A stretch of 13,273 nt of DNA, taken from assembly GCA_017394475.1 (NCBI GenBank), contig JAFPYQ010000344.1:1-13273 (forward strand), given 5' to 3'. The position numbers were made by a program, and so were the translations under genes. Below are positions 43-13,273 of this stretch, in pieces (the stretch's first letter is position 1; every line of letters begins with the position of its first letter). Source of the stretch: Oscillospiraceae bacterium. Its GTDB lineage: Bacteria > Bacillota > Clostridia > Oscillospirales > Ruminococcaceae. Below the pieces are notes generated by a model, which was given only the letters and a program-made list of their open reading frames with translations, made no database searches and was not told where the DNA came from.

Positions 43-63
43 GGCATGACATGGGGGATCGTG

Positions 64-2247
64 ATGGATAAAGAAATATTTGACAGAATAGACAGTCTGC
101 TCAGGGAATACAGGCTCGATGAGGCTGAAGAATATATGCTGCAGACCCTTGCATCTTCGCAGGAAAGCGGCGATATCGCGACCTGTGTAGCCTTGCTCAA
201 TGAGCTTGCGGGCTTTTACAGGGACAAGGGCGATTTTGAGAGGTCGATGGACTGTGCCCTGCGTTCTGCAAAGCTGCTTGAAAACTCCGATAAGACCGAT
301 TCCGCGTACTTTGCCGCCATGCTCAATCTCGCCAACGCCTATCGTGCGGGGGGAAAGCTATCGGAGGCAAAGGCTGTATATGATGATATAGACAAGGGCA
401 TAACAAAATATGCCCCCGGGCTTTTTTCAAGCTTTTGCAACAACATCGCGCTGATGTATCAGCAGACGGGCGAATTTGATAAAGCTGCGGGATATCTTGA
501 AAAGGCCATAGAGGCAGAGAGCGGCAGGGATGAACGCAAGACCGCCATATCCCGCGCAAATCTTGCTGTATGCAGGGTGCGGATGGGACAGGACGGTGAG
601 GAAAATGCCCGTCTTGCTTTAGACTATTTCAAGGGCATGTCACCATCGGATTTTCATTACAGCGCCGCACTTTCCGCCATGGGGGATGTGCTTTTCTCCA
701 AAGGCCTGTACGAAAAGGCAGCACAACATTATGAGACCGCCCTTTCTGAGATACTTATACACATGGGCAGATGCTCATTCTATGATATCGTTTCGGAAAA
801 CCTTGAAAGGTGCTATGAGCATTTTCAGAGACCCGCATATACGGGAATGGAGCTTTCAAGGATATATTTTGAGCTTATAGGAAAGCCCGTGCTGCGCAGG
901 AATTTCGGGGATGAACTGAAATATCTTGCCTGCGGCCTTGTTGGTGAGGGTTCGGAGTGCTTCGGCTACGATGACAGATATTCATGGGATCACGATTTCG
1001 GCCCTTCCTTCTGCATCTTTGTTTCGGACGATGCTCCCGATGAACTGTTTGAACGGCTGAGAAAAGCCTATTCTCTTCTGCCGCCCACATTTATGGGCTA
1101 TACCCACACGGAGGGGAAAAACTCATCTGGGCGCAGGGGAGTCATCCGCGTCAGTGATTTCTATAAACGCATACTCGGGCAGATACCCGAAACAGCGGAG
1201 GATTTCCAGCTCATACCTGATGAACAGCTTGCCTGTGCGGTAAACGGAGAGGTTTATTTCGACTACTGCGGTGAATTTTCGGGAATACGAAAGAGGATAT
1301 CGGATCGCCCATATGCAGACCGTCTTGCGAAGCTGTCTGCAGAGATAGAGAGCATATCAAAGCATGGTGAATACAATCTCCCGAGGATGACGGAGAGAGG
1401 GGACAAGGTGTCCGCCTTTATATCCCGTGAAAAGTTCATAGGCTCCGCGATGCGTGCTATGCACCTGATAAACGGCAAATTCGCCCCCTACTACAAATGG
1501 CTCTACCGCAGCACAGCAGACAGTTTTCCCGTCTTTGCGGAGCTTATCCTTCACTGTGTGGAAGGGGAAGACAATATCCATGAGATCATAGATGCCCTCT
1601 TATCAGATTGTGTAAAGAAAAAGATCGCAAAGGAGATGCTCCCGCCTGCCCTTATGTGCGACGAGATACTTTCCCTTGCCCGCCGTGTCAACACTGCCGA
1701 TAAGATAGCAAAACTCGAATGGAAGCTCTTTGACAAGGTGCAGAACAAGGGCGGCAGAGCATTCTGCCAGGATGACCCGCGTACATTTTTCATCATGCGC
1801 TGCGCTCAGTATTATACTTTCGATGAGAGACTACTCGATGCCATATATGCTGATTTCCTGCAGGCGGCTTCCGAGGGCAGGAACGTCATCACCGAAAAAT
1901 ACGGCTATATGATGAGATATACCGTACCCGAGGAGTTTGAGGAGATAAAGGATGCCCTGCCTCCGGTTTCGGAAGAAAAGCAGAGGCTCATAGATGCCAT
2001 CGTTCCCATTCAGGTGGGATGGATGGAGGAATTTGCCGGCAAATACCCCGATGTTGCCGCAAAAGCGCGGGTGATACATTCCTATGAGGATACTCCCGAC
2101 AATACCTCATACGAAACATATCTCAGGGGAGAGCTCTCGACATATTCCGATGATACCGTTGCACTGTACGGGGCGTTCATAGTGAGCCTGTACAGAGACG
2201 GGCGCAATCTTGCGGAAGAGATAATCTCCCTTGAAAACGGCATATAG
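64..2247 (+). CDS. TPR / DUF4037 (nucleotidyltransferase-like) / DUF4125 fusion protein, 727 aa
   Basis: Three-part soluble protein of unknown overall function; no signal peptide or membrane segment is seen. Residues about 1-260 are tetratricopeptide-like helical repeats (for example ALLNELAGFYRDKGDFE), a protein-interaction scaffold. Residues about 265-510 match my recollection of DUF4037, a nucleotidyltransferase-fold family. The signature GSECFGYDD at 296-304 is followed by W308-D309-H310-D311-F-G-P, recalling the GS...DxD metal site of nucleotidyltransferases, and by the conserved SKHGEYN and APYYKWL segments. Residues about 515-725 match DUF4125, with GGRAFCQDD near 563-571 and ETYLRGELSTYS near 684-695. 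The ATG at 64 is chosen over an upstream in-frame ATG at 46 because GGGGGA at 53-58 is well placed before it. It is the first gene of the operon. The domain calls come from remembered family motifs; substrate and partner are unknown. Confidence 0.8.
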   Translation: MDKEIFDRIDSLLREYRLDEAEEYMLQTLASSQESGDIATCVALLNELAGFYRDKGDFERSMDCALRSAKLLENSDKTDSAYFAAMLNLANAYRAGGKLSEAKAVYDDIDKGITKYAPGLFSSFCNNIALMYQQTGEFDKAAGYLEKAIEAESGRDERKTAISRANLAVCRVRMGQDGEENARLALDYFKGMSPSDFHYSAALSAMGDVLFSKGLYEKAAQHYETALSEILIHMGRCSFYDIVSENLERCYEHFQRPAYTGMELSRIYFELIGKPVLRRNFGDELKYLACGLVGEGSECFGYDDRYSWDHDFGPSFCIFVSDDAPDELFERLRKAYSLLPPTFMGYTHTEGKNSSGRRGVIRVSDFYKRILGQIPETAEDFQLIPDEQLACAVNGEVYFDYCGEFSGIRKRISDRPYADRLAKLSAEIESISKHGEYNLPRMTERGDKVSAFISREKFIGSAMRAMHLINGKFAPYYKWLYRSTADSFPVFAELILHCVEGEDNIHEIIDALLSDCVKKKIAKEMLPPALMCDEILSLARRVNTADKIAKLEWKLFDKVQNKGGRAFCQDDPRTFFIMRCAQYYTFDERLLDAIYADFLQAASEGRNVITEKYGYMMRYTVPEEFEEIKDALPPVSEEKQRLIDAIVPIQVGWMEEFAGKYPDVAAKARVIHSYEDTPDNTSYETYLRGELSTYSDDTVALYGAFIVSLYRDGRNLAEEIISLENGI

Positions 2248-7103: not shown

Positions 7104-7469
7104 ATGGAGATAAAGGTATTGCCCTGTGAGCTTTCTGTATGCAAGGCGCAGAGCCTGATGTACATTGATCTGGATGAAGAACCGTTTTTTATCGGGAAGA
7201 CCGATGAGGAGATCTCTGTGGTCTGCCGCACGGAGTTCGTACCAGCGGATGCAACAGACAGGGACGACGGCTGGAAGGCGTTTCGCATACAGGGGATGCT
7301 GGACTTTTCGCTCACAGGAATCCTTGCAAAAATAGCGGAGATCCTTGCGGAGGAAAAGATAAGCATATTCGCCATATCCACTTTCAATACAGACTATGTT
7401 CTTGTCAGGGATGAAAACCTGGACAGGGCGTTAAAGGCACTGTCTGATAACGGATATGATATTGTGTGA
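7104..7469 (+). CDS. Small ACT-domain protein (COG3603-like), 121 aa
   Basis: Cytosolic protein made of ACT-type modules, folds that usually bind amino acids and regulate a partner. The recognisable parts are the middle block GWKAFRIQGMLDFSLTGIL, the ILAEEKISIFAISTFNTDYVLV segment and the C-terminal helix LDRALKALSDNGYDI. This layout matches the small two-ACT family found in many bacteria and related to eukaryotic CASTOR arginine sensors. The ATG at 7104 has AGGAG at 7093-7097 six bases upstream and is preferred to the ATG at 7077, which overlaps the previous stop but lacks a site. The last four bases overlap the alarmone-synthetase start (GTGA), implying translational coupling. The ligand cannot be read from the sequence. 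Confidence 0.85.
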   Translation: MEIKVLPCELSVCKAQSLMYIDLDEEPFFIGKTDEEISVVCRTEFVPADATDRDDGWKAFRIQGMLDFSLTGILAKIAEILAEEKISIFAISTFNTDYVLVRDENLDRALKALSDNGYDIV

Positions 7470-8614
7470 CGCTTTCCTTTCGGCGGCATATCAAGAAAAG
7501 CATTAAAGGTTGGGATCATTTGGATCAGCGTTTGATAGAATATGATGAAAAGCATAGTGATTATGACAGGATGGGTGAGATAGTATATGAAAAGCTCAAA
7601 GATGCTCTGCACGACGAACACATCCATCCCATGCAGGTCACATACAGGATAAAGACGAGAAGTTCGGTGGAGAACAAGTTGATACGCAAGCCCGAAAAAT
7701 ATCAGAAACTTACGAATATGACCGATATCGCGGGATTCAGGGTGATATGCTATTTTTCGGATCAGGTGGATCAGGTGGCAAGGCTGCTTGAAGAGAACTT
7801 TGTCGTTGACAAGGTGAATTCTGTGGATAAGAGGAACGCCCTGCCTACCACATCATTCGGTTACAGCTCTCTCCATTATATCTGCACTCTGCCCCATAAC
7901 GGAGAATATCCCGAAAAGCTGTGTGTTCTGCCCTTTGAGGTGCAGATACGCTCTGTGCTTCAGCACGCATGGGCGGAGATAGAGCATGATCTGGGCTATA
8001 AGAGTGCATTCGGCGTTCCCAGGGACATCAGGCGCGAATTTTCCCGCCTTGCAGGACTGCTTGAGATCGCAGATGATCTCTTTGTGGGGATAAAGAATGA
8101 ACTTGTGGTATACAAGGATCAGGTCCGCAAGCGTATCGCAGAGGATAAGGCGGATGATCTCACCATAGACAGGCATACCCTTTCCGCGTATATCAAGGAA
8201 AGCGGGACTATGCAGTCCTTTATCATGGAGATAGCGGATATATGCGGCGCCGAGATACAGTATATAGACCCCGAACCCTATATCCCGAAGCTCGATTACC
8301 TTGATATACATACCCTTGGTGAGCTCAAGGAGCTTGTATACACCGAGCATGACGGAGCGCTCGATCTTGCTATGGATGCACTGACGGATTCCGGGATAGA
8401 CACTCTCACATCTGTGGTGGGGCTCTATTATCTGTGCAGGTCGAAACTGATATACGGGGATTATTCACGCGAACGTATAGCAAATTTCTTCCATATCAGC
8501 ATCAGTTCCGAGGAACGCGTGATGCGCCGCACAAACAAGCTGCTTGAAAAAAGAGAGTCTGTGAGAGCGCGGGCGGAAAAGGCTGCGGAAGATATGAAGG
8601 ATACCGGTACATGA
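7466..8614 (+). CDS. RelA/SpoT-type GTP pyrophosphokinase (HD-less alarmone synthetase) with C-terminal extension, 382 aa
   Basis: Predicted to make (p)ppGpp from ATP and GTP/GDP. No HD hydrolase domain precedes the synthetase, so it should be synthesis-only, like small alarmone synthetases. The synthetase motifs are intact: YRIKTRSSVENKL with K63 and R65 (ATP site), DIAGFR with D87 (metal ligand), FGYSSLH at 131-137 (GTP site), and FEVQIRSVLQHAWAEIEHDLGYK with E158 (second metal ligand). After about residue 215 come some 165 more residues with no TGS or RIS domain that I can see; the C-terminus is helical and basic (RRTNKLLEKRE). This is longer than the 200-260 aa RelQ/RelP enzymes. The start is a GTG overlapping the ACT gene stop (GTGA) with no clear Shine-Dalgarno site, so re-initiation is likely. 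Its stop also overlaps an ATG of the next frame. Confidence 0.92.
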   Translation: MTLSFRRHIKKSIKGWDHLDQRLIEYDEKHSDYDRMGEIVYEKLKDALHDEHIHPMQVTYRIKTRSSVENKLIRKPEKYQKLTNMTDIAGFRVICYFSDQVDQVARLLEENFVVDKVNSVDKRNALPTTSFGYSSLHYICTLPHNGEYPEKLCVLPFEVQIRSVLQHAWAEIEHDLGYKSAFGVPRDIRREFSRLAGLLEIADDLFVGIKNELVVYKDQVRKRIAEDKADDLTIDRHTLSAYIKESGTMQSFIMEIADICGAEIQYIDPEPYIPKLDYLDIHTLGELKELVYTEHDGALDLAMDALTDSGIDTLTSVVGLYYLCRSKLIYGDYSRERIANFFHISISSEERVMRRTNKLLEKRESVRARAEKAAEDMKDTGT

Positions 8615-8616
8615 TC

Positions 8617-8630
8617 GGAGGTATGGGAGA
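8617..8630 (+). promoter_or_regulatory. Double ribosome-binding site deciding the STAS-kinase start
   Basis: GGAGGT (8617-8622) and GGGAGA (8625-8630) lie in tandem before ATGs at 8632 and 8635. They argue against the ATG at 8611, which overlaps the previous stop but would place this strong site inside the gene. Confidence 0.5.
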
Positions 8631-8631
8631 T

Positions 8632-9813
8632 ATGATGAAATACAGCATCGAAGGCAGCAAACTGACTATCTTCCTCCGGGGCAGGATAGATTCAAAAAAT
8701 GCCTTTGAGACAGAAAAAGAGTTAAGCGAGGTCATAGACAGCACAGATCATACAGGCCTCATATTCGATTTGGATGAGCTTGAATATATTTCAAGTGCGG
8801 GTCTGCGGGTGCTGATGAAGATAAGGAAAAAATACGGCATCACTCCCGTGATGATCAATGCTTCCCCCGATGTCTACGATATATTCGTGACCACGGGATT
8901 CACCGAGATATTCAGCATATCAAGGAAGCTGCGTGAGGTGAGCGTGGATGGCTGTGAGATAATCGGCAACGGCTATTACGGCACTGTGTACAGGATAGAT
9001 GAGGAGACCATCGTAAAGGTATACAACGCCTCTCCCGACACTCTTGCCATGATATATAATGAACAGAGCAGGGCAAAGATAGCATTTATTGCAGGAATCC
9101 CCACTGCCATATCCTATGATGTGGTCAGGGTAGGGGACAGATACGGCGCTGTTTTTGAGCTGCTCAAAGCCAAGACCTTCAATGAGATGCTCATCGCCGA
9201 GCCCGAAAATGCAGATGATATAATCAGGCAGTTTGCACAGTTCATGCACACCACCCATCAGACACAGGTGCCCGCAGGGAAGCTCAATTCCGCAAAAAAG
9301 ATGTTCATGGGGTATCTTGATATTGATGCAAAGTACCTGCCATCAGATATGGTTGAAAAACTACGCATCATGATAGATGAGGTGCCCGAGACCCATGATC
9401 TCCTGCACGGCGATTTCCAGATGAAAAATGTCATGCTCACCGACGGAGAGCCCATGCTCATAGATATGGACACTCTTGCGGAGGGGCATCCCATATTCGA
9501 TCTCCAGTCGGTATATGTGACATATTTTGCATTCGGTGAGGCCGATAAGAACAACAGCATGGATTTCCTGGGCATCCCGAGGGAGGTCTCCGCCATGATA
9601 TGGGATAAGTTCGTAGGGTATTACTTTGATACCGAGGATGAGAAGCTTATTTCACAGATGCGCGACAAGATCATGATAACAGGCTGCATAAGGTTCATTT
9701 TCTTGCTGCATATCATGGGACAGGCGGGAACGGAGCTGTTCGGCATACGCCTTGAACAAACAACACGCCGCCTTGAAGAACTGCTGAAAAGAACGGACAG
9801 TCTTCTGTTCTGA
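8632..9813 (+). CDS. STAS (anti-anti-sigma) domain fused to APH-like kinase, 393 aa
   Basis: Two-domain fusion. Residues 1-105 form a STAS domain of the SpoIIAA/RsbV type; the phosphosite region YISSAGLRVL places the likely phosphorylated serine at S55. Residues about 110-390 form an aminoglycoside-phosphotransferase-type kinase fold: glycine loop GNGYYGTVY, ATP lysine K129 in IVKVYN, Brenner motif H259-G-D261 with N266, and metal-binding D278 in LIDMD. All catalytic residues are present, so it should be an active kinase. The substrate is unknown; the fold covers kinases of small molecules and proteins. The C-terminus is helical and not a membrane segment by eye. It is the last gene of the first operon, after the alarmone synthetase, and lies directly before a partner-switching operon. 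This suggests that phosphorylation of S55 by an RsbW-like kinase controls it. The start could be 8635 or 8611. Confidence 0.88.
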   Translation: MMKYSIEGSKLTIFLRGRIDSKNAFETEKELSEVIDSTDHTGLIFDLDELEYISSAGLRVLMKIRKKYGITPVMINASPDVYDIFVTTGFTEIFSISRKLREVSVDGCEIIGNGYYGTVYRIDEETIVKVYNASPDTLAMIYNEQSRAKIAFIAGIPTAISYDVVRVGDRYGAVFELLKAKTFNEMLIAEPENADDIIRQFAQFMHTTHQTQVPAGKLNSAKKMFMGYLDIDAKYLPSDMVEKLRIMIDEVPETHDLLHGDFQMKNVMLTDGEPMLIDMDTLAEGHPIFDLQSVYVTYFAFGEADKNNSMDFLGIPREVSAMIWDKFVGYYFDTEDEKLISQMRDKIMITGCIRFIFLLHIMGQAGTELFGIRLEQTTRRLEELLKRTDSLLF

Positions 9814-9900: not shown

Positions 9901-9929
9901 TTGACAAATCTTTATAAAAAAGGTAAAAT
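9901..9929 (+). promoter_or_regulatory. Sigma-A promoter of the partner-switching operon
   Basis: TTGACA (9901-9906) is a perfect -35 box. TAAAAT (9924-9929), 17 bp downstream, matches five of six -10 positions. The flanking sequence is AT-rich. Transcription would start near 9936, leaving a leader of about 92 nt before the STAS gene. A TATAAT at 9929-9934 overlaps, but its 22-bp spacing is unsuitable. Confidence 0.8.
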
Positions 9930-10027: not shown

Positions 10028-10324
10028 ATGACTATCAACAAGACCAAAAAAGAAGACCAGCTCACTGTTGCAGTTGAGGGCAGAATAGATACAGTAACAT
10101 CCCCCGAACTTGAAGGAGCTCTCAAGGACTCTATGGGAGATGCAGAGAAGCTCGTTATCGACCTCAAGGATGTGGATTACATCTCATCTGCAGGCCTCAG
10201 GGTACTTCTCGGCGCTCACAAGACCATGTCAAGAAAGGGCGGCCTGAAGATAATCAATGCTGCAGACAGCATAATGGAGATATTCGAAGTGACAGGTTTC
10301 TCTGATATACTCGATATCGGATAA
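10028..10324 (+). CDS. STAS-domain anti-anti-sigma factor (RsbV/SpoIIAA-like), 98 aa
   Basis: Single-domain cytosolic STAS protein of the usual 95-115 aa length. Such proteins bind an RsbW/SpoIIAB kinase when unphosphorylated and free that kinase's target. The core strand ending LVIDLKDVDYISSAGLRVLL carries the predicted phosphoserine S54, the Ser before A-G-L. The C-terminal block LKIINAADSIMEIFEVTGF is typical of the family. The N-terminus is lysine-rich. AAGGAAG at 10015-10021 lies before the ATG. It is the first gene of a four-gene operon that also holds the likely kinase and phosphatase acting on S54. The phosphosite motif matches that of the STAS-kinase fusion upstream. Confidence 0.95.
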   Translation: MTINKTKKEDQLTVAVEGRIDTVTSPELEGALKDSMGDAEKLVIDLKDVDYISSAGLRVLLGAHKTMSRKGGLKIINAADSIMEIFEVTGFSDILDIG

Positions 10325-10334
10325 GGGGCAAAAT

Positions 10335-10931
10335 ATGAAGACAGATGTTTACAGCATTACCCAGAACGGCAGGGATTTTTCTGCAATAACCGCTGTTGCA
10401 AAGAAATCAGCCGAATACAACGGCCTCGATGAAAAGAGCTCACTTCGTCTGCAGCTGCTTTCCGAAGAAGTGGTTTGTATGCTGCCACGACTTCTCAAAT
10501 ACGGCAACGGCAAGTTCTGGATAGAGAACAATGGCAATAAGTATGAGCTCCATACCTCCGTCACCATCGAAGAACCCACAAAGTATGACAGGGAAAAGAT
10601 ACTCGCTGTGTCCTCAAGCGGTAAGAATGCAGCCGCAGTGGGCATAATCGGCAAGATATGCACTGCCATAGAGTATCTGCTCGAGGAGAGCGCAAGGGCA
10701 GCCGAGGAAAATCCCTATCCTTTCTATTCCATGGGAATGGATGGGTATATAAATGAGAATCAGTGGTCCCTCACTGCCTACAGGAATTCATTTGAAGCGG
10801 AGGATGTCAGGGCAAATTACGTTGAAGAGTGGGACGAACTGGAAAAATCTATAATCGCAAATCTTGCCGATAATGTTACAGTCAGCATTGCAGGCGGTGA
10901 GATCTACATAGTTGTGGAGAAGACATTCTGA
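10335..10931 (+). CDS. Putative degenerate GHKL/RsbW-like protein, 198 aa
   Basis: No family is recognised with certainty. Residues about 35-75 (LRLQLLSEEVVCMLPRLLKYGNGKFWIENNGNKYELHTSV) resemble the start of an anti-sigma ATPase, where an acidic helix LxxEExxxN is followed by a loop and strands. The Asn of the N-box is absent (hydrophobic residues follow EE), and no DxGxG or GxGL ATP-lid motif is clear. Residues 90-120 contain SSSGKNAAAVGIIGK, then a middle part with several aromatics (NPYPFYSMGMDGY) and a final strand pair. The start follows AGGGG, and the stop overlaps the next gene (TGATG). The position between the STAS and RsbW-like genes implies a role in partner switching, perhaps as a non-catalytic binding partner or adaptor. 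The distant GHKL relation is inference. Confidence 0.75.
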   Translation: MKTDVYSITQNGRDFSAITAVAKKSAEYNGLDEKSSLRLQLLSEEVVCMLPRLLKYGNGKFWIENNGNKYELHTSVTIEEPTKYDREKILAVSSSGKNAAAVGIIGKICTAIEYLLEESARAAEENPYPFYSMGMDGYINENQWSLTAYRNSFEAEDVRANYVEEWDELEKSIIANLADNVTVSIAGGEIYIVVEKTF

Positions 10932-11347
10932 TGGATAGAATTCGCAAGATAGAAACAAATGCATCGAAGGAAGAACTTGATACCGTTATGGATCTTGTAC
11001 GGGAACAGCTTGAATCTGCGGACTGCCCAATGAAGGCGCAGATGCAGACAGAGCTTGCGGTCGAGGAAGTATTTGTCAATATTGCGAACTATGCGTATCA
11101 GTCGGGCTCGGGAAAAGTCGTTGTCACAACGGGGTTTCAGTCGGACCCGCTGACATTCGTGATAGTTTTTGAGGATAATGGCATCCCCTACGATCCGCTG
11201 AAAAATGATGATCCCGATATAACTCTTTCTGCGGAAGAAAGACCCATAGGCGGTCTGGGCATATTCCTTGTTAAAAAGAATATGGACGATGTTTTTTACG
11301 AATACCGCGACGGTAAAAACATACTTACGCTGAAAAAATCACTGTGA
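10931..11347 (+). CDS. RsbW/SpoIIAB-type anti-sigma factor, serine-protein kinase, 138 aa
   Basis: GHKL-fold ATPase that typically phosphorylates STAS proteins on serine and sequesters a sigma factor or other target. The N-box is LAVEEVFVNIANYAY (residues about 40-54), with the Glu and Asn that hold Mg-ATP. The G1 box is FEDNGIPYDPL, and the G2/ATP lid is PIGGLGIFLVKKNMD. The length is normal for the family. The ATG overlaps the previous stop; GGAGA at 10916-10920 is a likely ribosome-binding site. Partners encoded alongside are the free STAS protein and the PP2C phosphatase. No sigma factor follows, so the final target lies elsewhere or is not a sigma factor. Confidence 0.94.
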   Translation: MDRIRKIETNASKEELDTVMDLVREQLESADCPMKAQMQTELAVEEVFVNIANYAYQSGSGKVVVTTGFQSDPLTFVIVFEDNGIPYDPLKNDDPDITLSAEERPIGGLGIFLVKKNMDDVFYEYRDGKNILTLKKSL

Positions 11348-11368: not shown

Positions 11369-13273
11369 TTGAAAAAAGTATTGTGGTTTACCGTAGGCGG
11401 CCTGCATCAGAAGATACTCATTCTGGTGCAGGTATTTCTTATAGTTCTGATGGGCGTGTTCCTTGGTGTGTCCTCGATACATACCAGAAGGCTCAGCTCC
11501 ATCGTGGATGAGACCAGGAGCGAGCAGCAGGCGGCGATAGATAATATCTCCGGTGAGACCATGCACTTTGCCATTGAGAACACCATGACAAAGATGATAG
11601 TCCTGCAGGCTCAGAATGCTGATGATGCTTTTGAAGATGTGACCAACAACGTCAGGATGCTGAGAGATATTGCCGAAGGGATGTTTGCAAACAGGTCGGG
11701 TATGGCACCTGCGGAAGTTTTTCCTCCTGATCCTGCCAAAGACGGCGTCGTTTCATCATATTTCCTGTGTGAACAGGGTGTGGACTATACCCGTTCGGAA
11801 TATCTGGGTATAGCCGCAAATATGTGCGATACCATGATGGCTATGTGCTCCTGCAATGACAGGATCGGCAACTGTTATATCGGCCTTGCGGACGGAACGC
11901 ACATCGCCGTGGGAACATCGACCAAGGAAAAATACGATGAAAGCGGTGCCCTCAAGCCCTTTCCCGTCCGTGAAAGACCCTGGTACAGGGGAGCGGCTGA
12001 AAAAGGTGATCTCTATTTTACAGGCCTTGAAAAGGATGCCTTTGGCGATTCCACATGGATCACCTGTTCGGCGCCTGTCATCGTTGACGGCAGGCTGTAT
12101 GGCGTTGTGGGCATAGACATCGTGGTGGATGATCTGTGCAGCTATGCATCGGATGATGAGAATGATTCGGGTTTTGTCTGCATCGTCAATGAGGAGGGCA
12201 AGATCATCGTTGCCCCCGGGAACAACGGACTGTTTACCGTTTCCGAGTCGGAAAATGCCGAGGATCTCAGAAAATCCGACAACAAACAGCTTGCAGCTTT
12301 TGTTGAAAATGCACTGAGTGGCGAGACAGGTCTGGATGTCGTCACTGTTGACGGCAGGGAATACTACATGACTGGCTCGCCGATTAAGTCTATTGGCTGG
12401 GCTGTGGTCTCGGTCGTGGACAAGCAGATCACGGAAGAACCTGCAAAAAAATTGCGCTCTGAGTATGACAGGATAAATGCGGATGCCACTGCGACCTACA
12501 GGAGCGGCTCCGACAATTCTGCACATACCGTGTATGTGATGCTGGGACTTGTCTTTGTTATCGCATCTGTTGCAGCGCTCATAGTTGCAGACAGGATAGT
12601 CGATCCCGTGGAATCCATGACAAAGGAGATAATAGCGGGAGCCACCACAGGCAAGCTGTTTGAGATGAGACCCGAATACAAGACGGGCGATGAGATACAG
12701 GTGCTCGCTGAATCCTTCGATGATCTCTCACGGAAGACAAAGCAGTACATCATAGACCTTACCCGCATCACAAAGGAAAAGGAACGCATCGGTACCGAGC
12801 TTGAACTTGCAAAACGCATACAGGCGGATATGCTGCCTGATACCTACCCTGCATTCCCCGAACGCAGCGAGTTTGACATTTACGCATCCATGACTCCCGC
12901 AAAGGAAGTAGGCGGCGATTTCTACGATTATTTCCTTATAGATGACGATCATCTGTGCCTTGTTATAGCGGATGTGTCGGGCAAGGGCGTGCCTGCGGCA
13001 TTGTTTATGATGATGACTATGATCCTGATCAAGACCATAGCCGAGTCCGAAAGATCGCCCGGGGCGATACTCGAAAAGCTGAACAGGATGCTGTGTGCGA
13101 ACAACAGGGAAGAAATGTTCGTCACCGTATGGCTGGGCGTTCTCGATATCCCGTCCGGAGAGCTCACGGCTGCCAATGCAGGGCATGAATACCCGGTGAT
13201 CAGAAAAGCAGGCGGGAAATATGAGATCATCAAGGATAAGCATGGCTTTGTCATCGGCGGCATGGATCAAGTC
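11369..13273 (+). CDS. Cache-HAMP-PP2C sensor phosphatase (RsbU/SpoIIE type), partial at right edge
   Basis: Membrane-anchored serine phosphatase expected to dephosphorylate STAS proteins when its outside domain binds a ligand. In order: TM1 (residues about 16-38), a large extracytoplasmic double-Cache domain (40-385), TM2 (388-406), HAMP (about 407-459, with DPVESMTKEI), a signalling helix with ELELAKRIQADMLP (about 475-490), then PP2C with GGDFYDYF (metal-binding D517), DVSGKG (metal-binding D535) and NAGHEYP (603-609). The open frame runs through 635 codons to the window end, so the last metal-binding aspartate is not seen. In the Cache domain, R203-P-W205-Y206 and D250 fit the remembered dCache_1AA amino-acid-binding motif, with F198 where Tyr is usual. 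The TTG start has a good site. The gene is 21 nt after the RsbW-like gene, in the same operon. Confidence 0.93.
   Translation, partial: MKKVLWFTVGGLHQKILILVQVFLIVLMGVFLGVSSIHTRRLSSIVDETRSEQQAAIDNISGETMHFAIENTMTKMIVLQAQNADDAFEDVTNNVRMLRDIAEGMFANRSGMAPAEVFPPDPAKDGVVSSYFLCEQGVDYTRSEYLGIAANMCDTMMAMCSCNDRIGNCYIGLADGTHIAVGTSTKEKYDESGALKPFPVRERPWYRGAAEKGDLYFTGLEKDAFGDSTWITCSAPVIVDGRLYGVVGIDIVVDDLCSYASDDENDSGFVCIVNEEGKIIVAPGNNGLFTVSESENAEDLRKSDNKQLAAFVENALSGETGLDVVTVDGREYYMTGSPIKSIGWAVVSVVDKQITEEPAKKLRSEYDRINADATATYRSGSDNSAHTVYVMLGLVFVIASVAALIVADRIVDPVESMTKEIIAGATTGKLFEMRPEYKTGDEIQVLAESFDDLSRKTKQYIIDLTRITKEKERIGTELELAKRIQADMLPDTYPAFPERSEFDIYASMTPAKEVGGDFYDYFLIDDDHLCLVIADVSGKGVPAALFMMMTMILIKTIAESERSPGAILEKLNRMLCANNREEMFVTVWLGVLDIPSGELTAANAGHEYPVIRKAGGKYEIIKDKHGFVIGGMDQV

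Follow-up and report, generated by a model that had tools for sequence, protein, structure and literature searches.

In the RsbV-RsbW-RsbU and SpoIIAA-SpoIIAB-SpoIIE systems of Bacillus subtilis, a serine of a STAS protein is phosphorylated by a GHKL switch kinase and the reaction is reversed by a PP2C phosphatase. In the SiaABCD system of Pseudomonas aeruginosa, according to the part of PMC7647112 that deals with it, the PP2C phosphatase SiaA and the kinase SiaB set the state of SiaC and hence that of a diguanylate cyclase, SiaD, and not of a sigma factor. Here we analyse a 13,273-nucleotide stretch from an Oscillospiraceae bacterium (contig JAFPYQ010000344.1; the whole stretch is called the window below). 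It encodes a STAS domain fused to a kinase of the APH fold (STAS-APH) and, downstream, genes of the partner-switch type. The reading we favour, with a probability of roughly 0.6, is a partner switch whose output is the STAS-attached kinase itself; this would phosphorylate a substrate, likely a small molecule, and a hydrolase partner would probably act on the product or on a related nucleotide.

The fusion gene has no internal stop. An in-frame ATG at 8611 would lengthen the protein to 400 residues, its gene then overlapping the stop of the gene before it; the ATG at 8632 is a plausible start because GGAGG lies 10 nucleotides ahead of it (8617-8621). The protein is organised as follows.

8632..9813, forward strand: STAS-APH fusion protein, 393 residues (open reading frame translation, Pfam)
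8632..8937, forward strand: STAS domain, residues 1-102, of the RsbV/SpoIIAA type, with S54 and S55 in YISSAGLR (S55 codon at 8794-8796)
8938..9813, forward strand: APH-fold kinase domain, residues 103-393, with K129 (9016-9018), HGD 259-261 (9406-9414), N266 (9427-9429) and D278 (9463-9465) (Pfam, invariance, fold matches)

An earlier reading of this DNA, made from its letters alone (the sequence-only reading), had described a complete STAS domain with YISSAGLR joined to a kinase with these catalytic residues. Both descriptions are borne out. The reading frame is intact and the two Pfam domains exceed their curated cut-offs (STAS 6.5e-13, residues 11-102; APH 2.1e-11, residues 109-296, with 44.5 bits against PF01636, whose gathering score is 23.2). 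The kinase residues are located as claimed and do not vary across 47 aligned sequences, the query among them. They were also followed in 115 STAS-APH proteins from 114 other loci (some loci give none and some several): K129, H259, D261, N266 and D278 are kept in all 115 and residue G260 in 114. S54 and S55 are present in 114/114 relatives covering those positions, L148, which has no STAS serine region, being set aside. S55 aligns with the first serine of the SpoIIAA DSSG motif, which we take to be the phosphosite Ser58. That neither the STAS serines nor the kinase residues vary points to strong selection on both halves of the protein. In addition, both Pfam domains are carried by 119 of the 120 best database matches, so that their joining is not a matter of chance. 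In the predicted structure, the last STAS strand (95-98) lies some ten residues ahead of the first kinase strand (109-113).

The protein scores below several other curated models. The STAS domain misses the NCBIfam antagonist models (TIGR00377, 52.6 bits for a cut-off of 53.45; TIGR02886, 32.8 for 114.75) and the kinase fails the curated aminoglycoside-resistance models that it matches (APH_3p_I, 16.3 bits against 400; APH_6, 12.3 against 325). The best NCBIfam match of the kinase domain is TIGR02172 (Fb_sc_TIGR02172; 111.6 bits over residues 108-331, below the cut-off of 228.2), whose name presumably refers to Fibrobacter succinogenes paralogs; no open-access paper naming this model was found.

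The fusion belongs to a large STAS-APH kinase family, which occurs in Clostridia of the gut and rumen and in certain other bacteria of the gut. Of 8000 candidates scored in a database search with the fusion, 7355 had E<=0.001, partial relatives included. By genome the distribution is patchy: counting the window's genome, STAS-APH occurs in 9 of 148 genomes of its family (E<=1e-40) and in 24 of 391 genomes of its class (E<=1e-60), two of the 24 (genomes G260 and G284) matching in the kinase part only. Three rows were dropped from the set of loci (L159 and L161 as duplicates, and L024, which overlaps L025), and L038, with a broken-up reading frame, gives no STAS-APH call. At L007 and L156 several divergent STAS-APH paralogs lie close together, with a gene for a small alarmone hydrolase (SAH) fused to the kinase alongside at L156. 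Bpr_I0249 of Butyrivibrio proteoclasticus resembles the family in being annotated with the same two domains; in the two-dimensional gel results given in PMC5217386, the one open-access paper found to name a protein so annotated, its mid-log spot, which also contained ribosomal protein S1, was 12-fold lower on xylan than on xylose. Carbon source may therefore matter.

Association with partner-switch genes

Some relatives are longer, about 500-585 residues, and carry an RsbW-like HATPase_c_2 domain after the kinase (confirmed by Pfam in 10/10 tested). This triple architecture accounts for 23 of 82 STAS-APH-type proteins in our first set and 29 of 116 in the full set, and is found in all 120 listed homologs of one triple fusion. 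When 23 triple fusions are aligned, the STAS serines, the kinase K, HGD, N and D, and the HATPase motifs (E/N, DxG and GGL) are all invariant. The triple fusion of L061 passes TIGR00377 (69.3 bits), and the predicted model of a triple fusion has a mean local confidence score (pLDDT) of 86.9 and a predicted template modelling score (pTM) of 0.70. A single chain in these proteins unites the APH kinase with a switch kinase and with the domain that the latter presumably phosphorylates.

Switch genes (PP2C, HATPase or lone STAS) were counted within five genes in the same-strand run (referred to simply as the run). They are present for 34 of 87 two-domain fusions and 26 of 29 triple fusions. These and the other neighbour counts are lower bounds, since several flanks are cut by contig ends. 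A class-wide sample comprises 28 kinase loci, among them two SAH-APH genes and a frame with the kinase alone; the SpoIIE gene near that frame is on the opposite strand. Of the 28, 12 have a SpoIIE gene at a distance of at most 5 kb, 11 of them on the same strand, for 0.41 expected. A HATPase_c_2 domain lies within 6 kb of 14 loci for 0.46 expected; in 3 of the 14 this is solely the kinase-fused domain. Expected counts assume rounded genome sizes and uniform placement and ignore contig ends; the SpoIIE count uses all 65 SpoIIE matches outside the window. None of the sigma70 region-2 genes listed comes within 6 kb of a kinase locus in this sample, a negative that is not complete because 147 of the 231 non-window sigma matches are listed.

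The last result bears on the possibility that the fusion is an ordinary anti-sigma-factor antagonist, whose STAS domain sequesters the RsbW-like protein as an anti-sigma factor, with the kinase only tuning this and the output being a sigma factor encoded elsewhere. The RsbV-like STAS domain with a serine at the phosphosite position would fit, and some database entries are named anti-sigma factor antagonist. The classical arrangement is, however, readily seen in the same genomes, where 15 of 70 HATPase_c_2 domains lie within 1.5 kb of a sigma gene (the 70 exclude two that pass the cut-off only together with their neighbours), and none of these 15 is among the 17 near the kinase. The kinase is also found without STAS, fused to a hydrolase, and its catalytic residues do not vary. 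We give this explanation a low probability. STAS-APH and the switch genes are very probably functionally coupled at the level of the family, which is likely to be a variant of partner switching with an enzyme as output. The sequence-only proposal that an enzyme is controlled in place of a sigma factor is supported for the family by the triple fusions, the clustering above uniform placement and the 28 loci with no listed sigma gene near; for the window itself it is not supported.

MATE-family transporters with a C-terminal HATPase_c_2 domain are found at L042:14825-16594, at L167:659-2605 (in the window's own genome) and at other loci, several of them in STAS-APH operons; the transporter may be a further partner-switch output. 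Near STAS-APH genes there are also members of the sodium:dicarboxylate symporter family (L056:8349-9995, by Pfam, and L026:5806-7461, of the same cluster), of which an N-terminal stretch matched our first-pass HATPase profile but not Pfam.

Hydrolase partners and the kinase substrate

Phosphohydrolases are the second recurrent association. A SpoT-like HD_4 hydrolase (the SAH) or a PHP phosphoesterase occurs in the run of 38 of 116 proteins (19 each, never both), and the 37 that are direct neighbours overlap the fusion gene or sit within 34 bp of it. The two scanned PHP proteins resemble 3',5'-nucleoside bisphosphate phosphatase (NF041577, 107 and 102 bits, under the cut-off of 400). These unrelated enzymes look interchangeable, since at least five changes between SAH and PHP are needed on the kinase tree. 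The SAH is fused directly to the kinase, without STAS, in three cases among our loci, and this architecture is shared by 120/120 listed homologs. HD_4 is above its cut-off in 3/3 stand-alone and 3/3 fused SAH proteins scanned; residues R, H, HD, E, D and N, which we assume to form the metal site, are invariant in 33 rows and common to a long Rel-like protein. Six stand-alone close SAH matches exist in the 391 genomes (E<=1e-40). A STAS-APH gene adjoins five of them. The genome of the sixth has no STAS-APH match at E<=1e-60, and no domain of the set stands beside this SAH in the stretch viewed.

The sequence-only reading had left the choice between small-molecule and protein phosphorylation. 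The adjacent or fused phosphohydrolases favour a small molecule, as do the fold matches of the kinase domain (PsiK, APH(3'), the choline/ethanolamine kinase family and MTR kinase), the best of which are mostly small-molecule kinases. Judged from these features, the kinase most likely acts on a small molecule, possibly a nucleotide. APH-fold kinases include the protein kinase YihE, and YihE is a weak PDB sequence match (E 0.27). The APH domain might be a protein kinase that phosphorylates STAS, either its own (the serines are in the same chain) or the stand-alone 98-residue one of the window, as a second route into the switch. The SAH-APH fusions without STAS, the RsbW-like domain already present in the triple fusions and the nature of the best fold matches argue against this, and we consider it the least probable of the explanations discussed here.

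Among 104 scanned neighbours, other recurrent families are DUF218 (8), D-Ala-D-Ala dipeptidase (4) and GH3 (3); GGDEF is found in 2 of the 104, at other loci. One cluster lies three places downstream of STAS-APH at L059:5073-5732, L082:4291-5052, L070:9206-9715 and L079:5742-6395, and its L059 member is D-Ala-D-Ala dipeptidase-like (Peptidase_M15, the family seen in 4/104). An HAD phosphatase was considered as a third general hydrolase and rejected: HAD families occur in at most 4 of the 104 neighbours scanned (of 156 found), and only 1 of 10 candidates of 259-309 residues is HAD.

These observations can be assembled into a mechanism. A sensor dCache-PP2C phosphatase and an RsbW-like HATPase kinase would together set the phosphorylation of the invariant S55. 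The state of S55, or docking of the RsbW-like protein on the STAS domain beside the kinase N-lobe, would switch the activity of the attached kinase. Our guess, drawn from the SiaA phosphatase and SiaB kinase as an analogous pair, is that the dephosphorylated STAS corresponds to the active kinase. The kinase would then phosphorylate its small molecule, and the SAH or PHP enzyme would probably dephosphorylate the product or a related nucleotide. A bolder version, which we think unlikely, is a new second-messenger system of gut Clostridia: the kinase would make a phosphorylated nucleotide-type signal (alarmone-, pNp- or NADP-like), erased by the paired SAH or PHP, and an external cue acting through the sensor-PP2C partner switch would set its level through the STAS-kinase-RsbW chain.

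If the favoured mechanism is true, partner switching, best known for sigma-factor control, acts in rumen and gut bacteria straight on a kinase of metabolism or signalling, and in some members one polypeptide holds both this kinase and its switch kinase. Because the kinase is repeatedly paired with one or the other of two unrelated phosphohydrolases and never with both, its substrate can be tested directly.

The window and its clade

The fusion of the window is preceded by a RelA/SpoT synthetase gene and followed, after 214 bp, by the switch operon.

7466..8614, forward strand: RelA/SpoT synthetase-domain protein with a C-terminal extension, immediately upstream of the fusion (Pfam 2e-20; PDB match YwaC/YjbM)
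9901..9929, forward strand: promoter-like TTGACA-17-TAAAAT, 11/12 consensus positions, in the gap ahead of the switch operon (a match to the consensus only)
10028..10324, forward strand: stand-alone STAS protein, 98 residues, with YISSAGLRVLL (Pfam; TIGR00377 at 72.7 bits, over the cut-off)
10335..10931, forward strand: 198-residue protein that no Pfam family matches above cut-off (in other genomes its relatives are encoded close to STAS-APH and to stand-alone STAS genes)
10931..11347, forward strand: RsbW-like switch kinase, HATPase_c_2 (Pfam 2.6e-23; the sole PDB match at E<=0.01 is the RsbW serine-protein kinase 6m36)
11369..13273, forward strand: dCache-sensor PP2C phosphatase of the SpoIIE family (Pfam; gene cut by the contig end at 13273)

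The GHKL-type kinase and PP2C genes that the sequence-only reading had described in the next operon are present. By eye, the 198-residue protein looks like a diverged GHKL protein. A second copy of its family adjoins a STAS gene elsewhere in the window's genome (L169:6625-7182). Neither a sigma domain nor GGDEF is found among the 10 window proteins scanned by Pfam. At the start of the window (46-2247) is a TPR protein with DUF4037 and DUF4125. A conserved operon with the RelA/SpoT synthetase was rejected as a general feature, the arrangement being seen at 1/115 loci compared. An alarmone hydrolase gene lies in the run of 17 other two-domain fusions, to be compared with the synthetase beside this one.

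On the kinase tree, a fused HATPase or switch genes in the run are present in 58 of 69 rows of an operonic group, 2 of 22 of the most divergent group and 3 of 25 of the window's clade. The operonic group comprises all STAS-APH rows outside the other two. These counts are approximate because 41 of the 116 inner branches of the tree (FastTree) are open and several of its branches are long (L149, L150, L156_10, L077 and L076). The sequence-only reading had named the lack of a conserved neighbourhood in related genomes as grounds for refuting its proposal, and for the window this partly applies: no other row of its clade combines PP2C and HATPase genes in the run. Within this clade, L022 has STAS and a gene of the 198-residue family in its run and the run of L019 holds a gene for STAS fused to a nonribosomal peptide synthetase (NRPS). 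Beyond the run, L006 has a PP2C gene 3.8 kb downstream and L155 a lone STAS gene 4.4 kb away. No Pfam family is common to more than two clade members among the 43 of 44 neighbour proteins scanned (the scan left out one 2689-residue protein, and 32 neighbours of the most divergent group were outside it).

The L019 gene (14972-18424), in one run with the STAS-APH gene, joins STAS to NRPS adenylation, carrier and condensation domains. A link to natural-product synthesis was not retained, L019 being a single case. A link to the TCAD conflict systems was also dropped, as the TCAD9 matches are below the cut-off; in four places of PMC7159879 APH kinases are mentioned only in passing.

The adjacency in the window may be incidental. 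In that case the fusion would belong to the upstream RelA/SpoT-synthetase transcription unit and the STAS/RsbW-like/PP2C operon would serve another output; the family could still be switch-controlled, here in trans through other components. We regard this as a serious possibility, somewhat short of an even chance. It is consistent with the clade counts, with the nearest set of 8 rows (in which switch genes are in the run only at the window), and with the 214-bp gap and its promoter-like site. Moreover, a single genome of the same genus is listed with a match, and its fusion (L164) is distant, at 37% identity, with no switch genes in the run. On the other side, of the HATPase_c_2 matches in this assembly, which is 72% complete, just one is a stand-alone RsbW-like gene, that of the window's operon; the second-best match is the MATE-HATPase fusion and the remaining ones are weak and in frames of more than 440 residues. 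The arrangement at L022, in the same clade, and the cutting of several relatives' flanks by contig ends also argue against an incidental adjacency. The RsbW-like/PP2C pair of the window would presumably be the cognate one; control of the fusion by the next operon is plausible, without support from conservation.

A further alternative is that STAS is a structural or dimerisation module, the kinase being constitutively active and the clustering reflecting a shared regulon only. As this would predict, switch genes are missing from the run for the majority of members sampled in two of the groups. S54 and S55 are, however, unvarying in 114/114 relatives, and the idea does not readily account for the many members that carry a fused RsbW-like domain whose ATP-site motifs are conserved; we consider it quite improbable.

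Returning to the STAS-attached kinase as the output of a partner switch, several points weigh against it. Switch genes are absent from the run in 22 of the 25 rows of the window's clade and in 20 of the 22 of the most divergent group, and among the clade's 25 rows the combination of PP2C and HATPase genes in the run is confined to the window. The switch operon of the window may have its own promoter, a suggestion based on the consensus match only; shuffled sequence of this region yields equally many such sites. Conservation of the STAS serines could reflect needs of the fold, the DUF218, D-Ala-D-Ala dipeptidase and GH3 neighbours do not suggest nucleotides, and no functional or biochemical study of a STAS-APH member was found in the open-access literature.

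Comparison with known systems

The kinase shares the fold and the HGD...N...D residues of the APH/choline kinase/MTR kinase family (PF01636). It differs from these relatives in being fused to STAS or to an alarmone hydrolase and in scoring far below the curated resistance models matched. Its SAH partner has, like the small alarmone hydrolases of the MESH1/SpoT HD type treated in the relevant part of PMC9765508, an HD_4 domain and conserved metal-site residues. In the passages considered from a survey of RelA/SpoT homologues (PMC3153485), a small member is combined with Nudix or phosphomethylpyrimidine kinase domains and no APH combination was found.

Fusion of STAS to an enzyme has a counterpart in Anabaena all4160, a STAS-glycosyltransferase fusion (PMC8256260) in which STAS is also N-terminal. 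The enzyme is different, and the passages considered from that paper mention no fused RsbW-like domain. As judged by analogy and from the part of its description considered here, SiaABC control of SiaD is the nearest studied precedent for an output other than a sigma factor: there too, as predicted here, an enzyme is controlled through a phospho-switched protein on which a PP2C phosphatase and a kinase act. In the STAS-APH proteins, unlike SiaABCD, the enzyme is a kinase of the APH fold in covalent linkage with STAS, a serine and not Thr68 is the predicted phosphosite, and there is no cyclase.

The components themselves are those of RsbV-RsbW-RsbU and SpoIIAA-SpoIIAB-SpoIIE: a STAS domain with a conserved serine, a HATPase_c_2 kinase and a PP2C phosphatase, clustered in many genomes. 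In contrast to RsbVW-SigB and SpoIIAA-AB-SigF, no listed sigma gene is nearby, the switch appears to have a STAS-fused enzyme as its output, and the switch kinase can share the chain of that enzyme.
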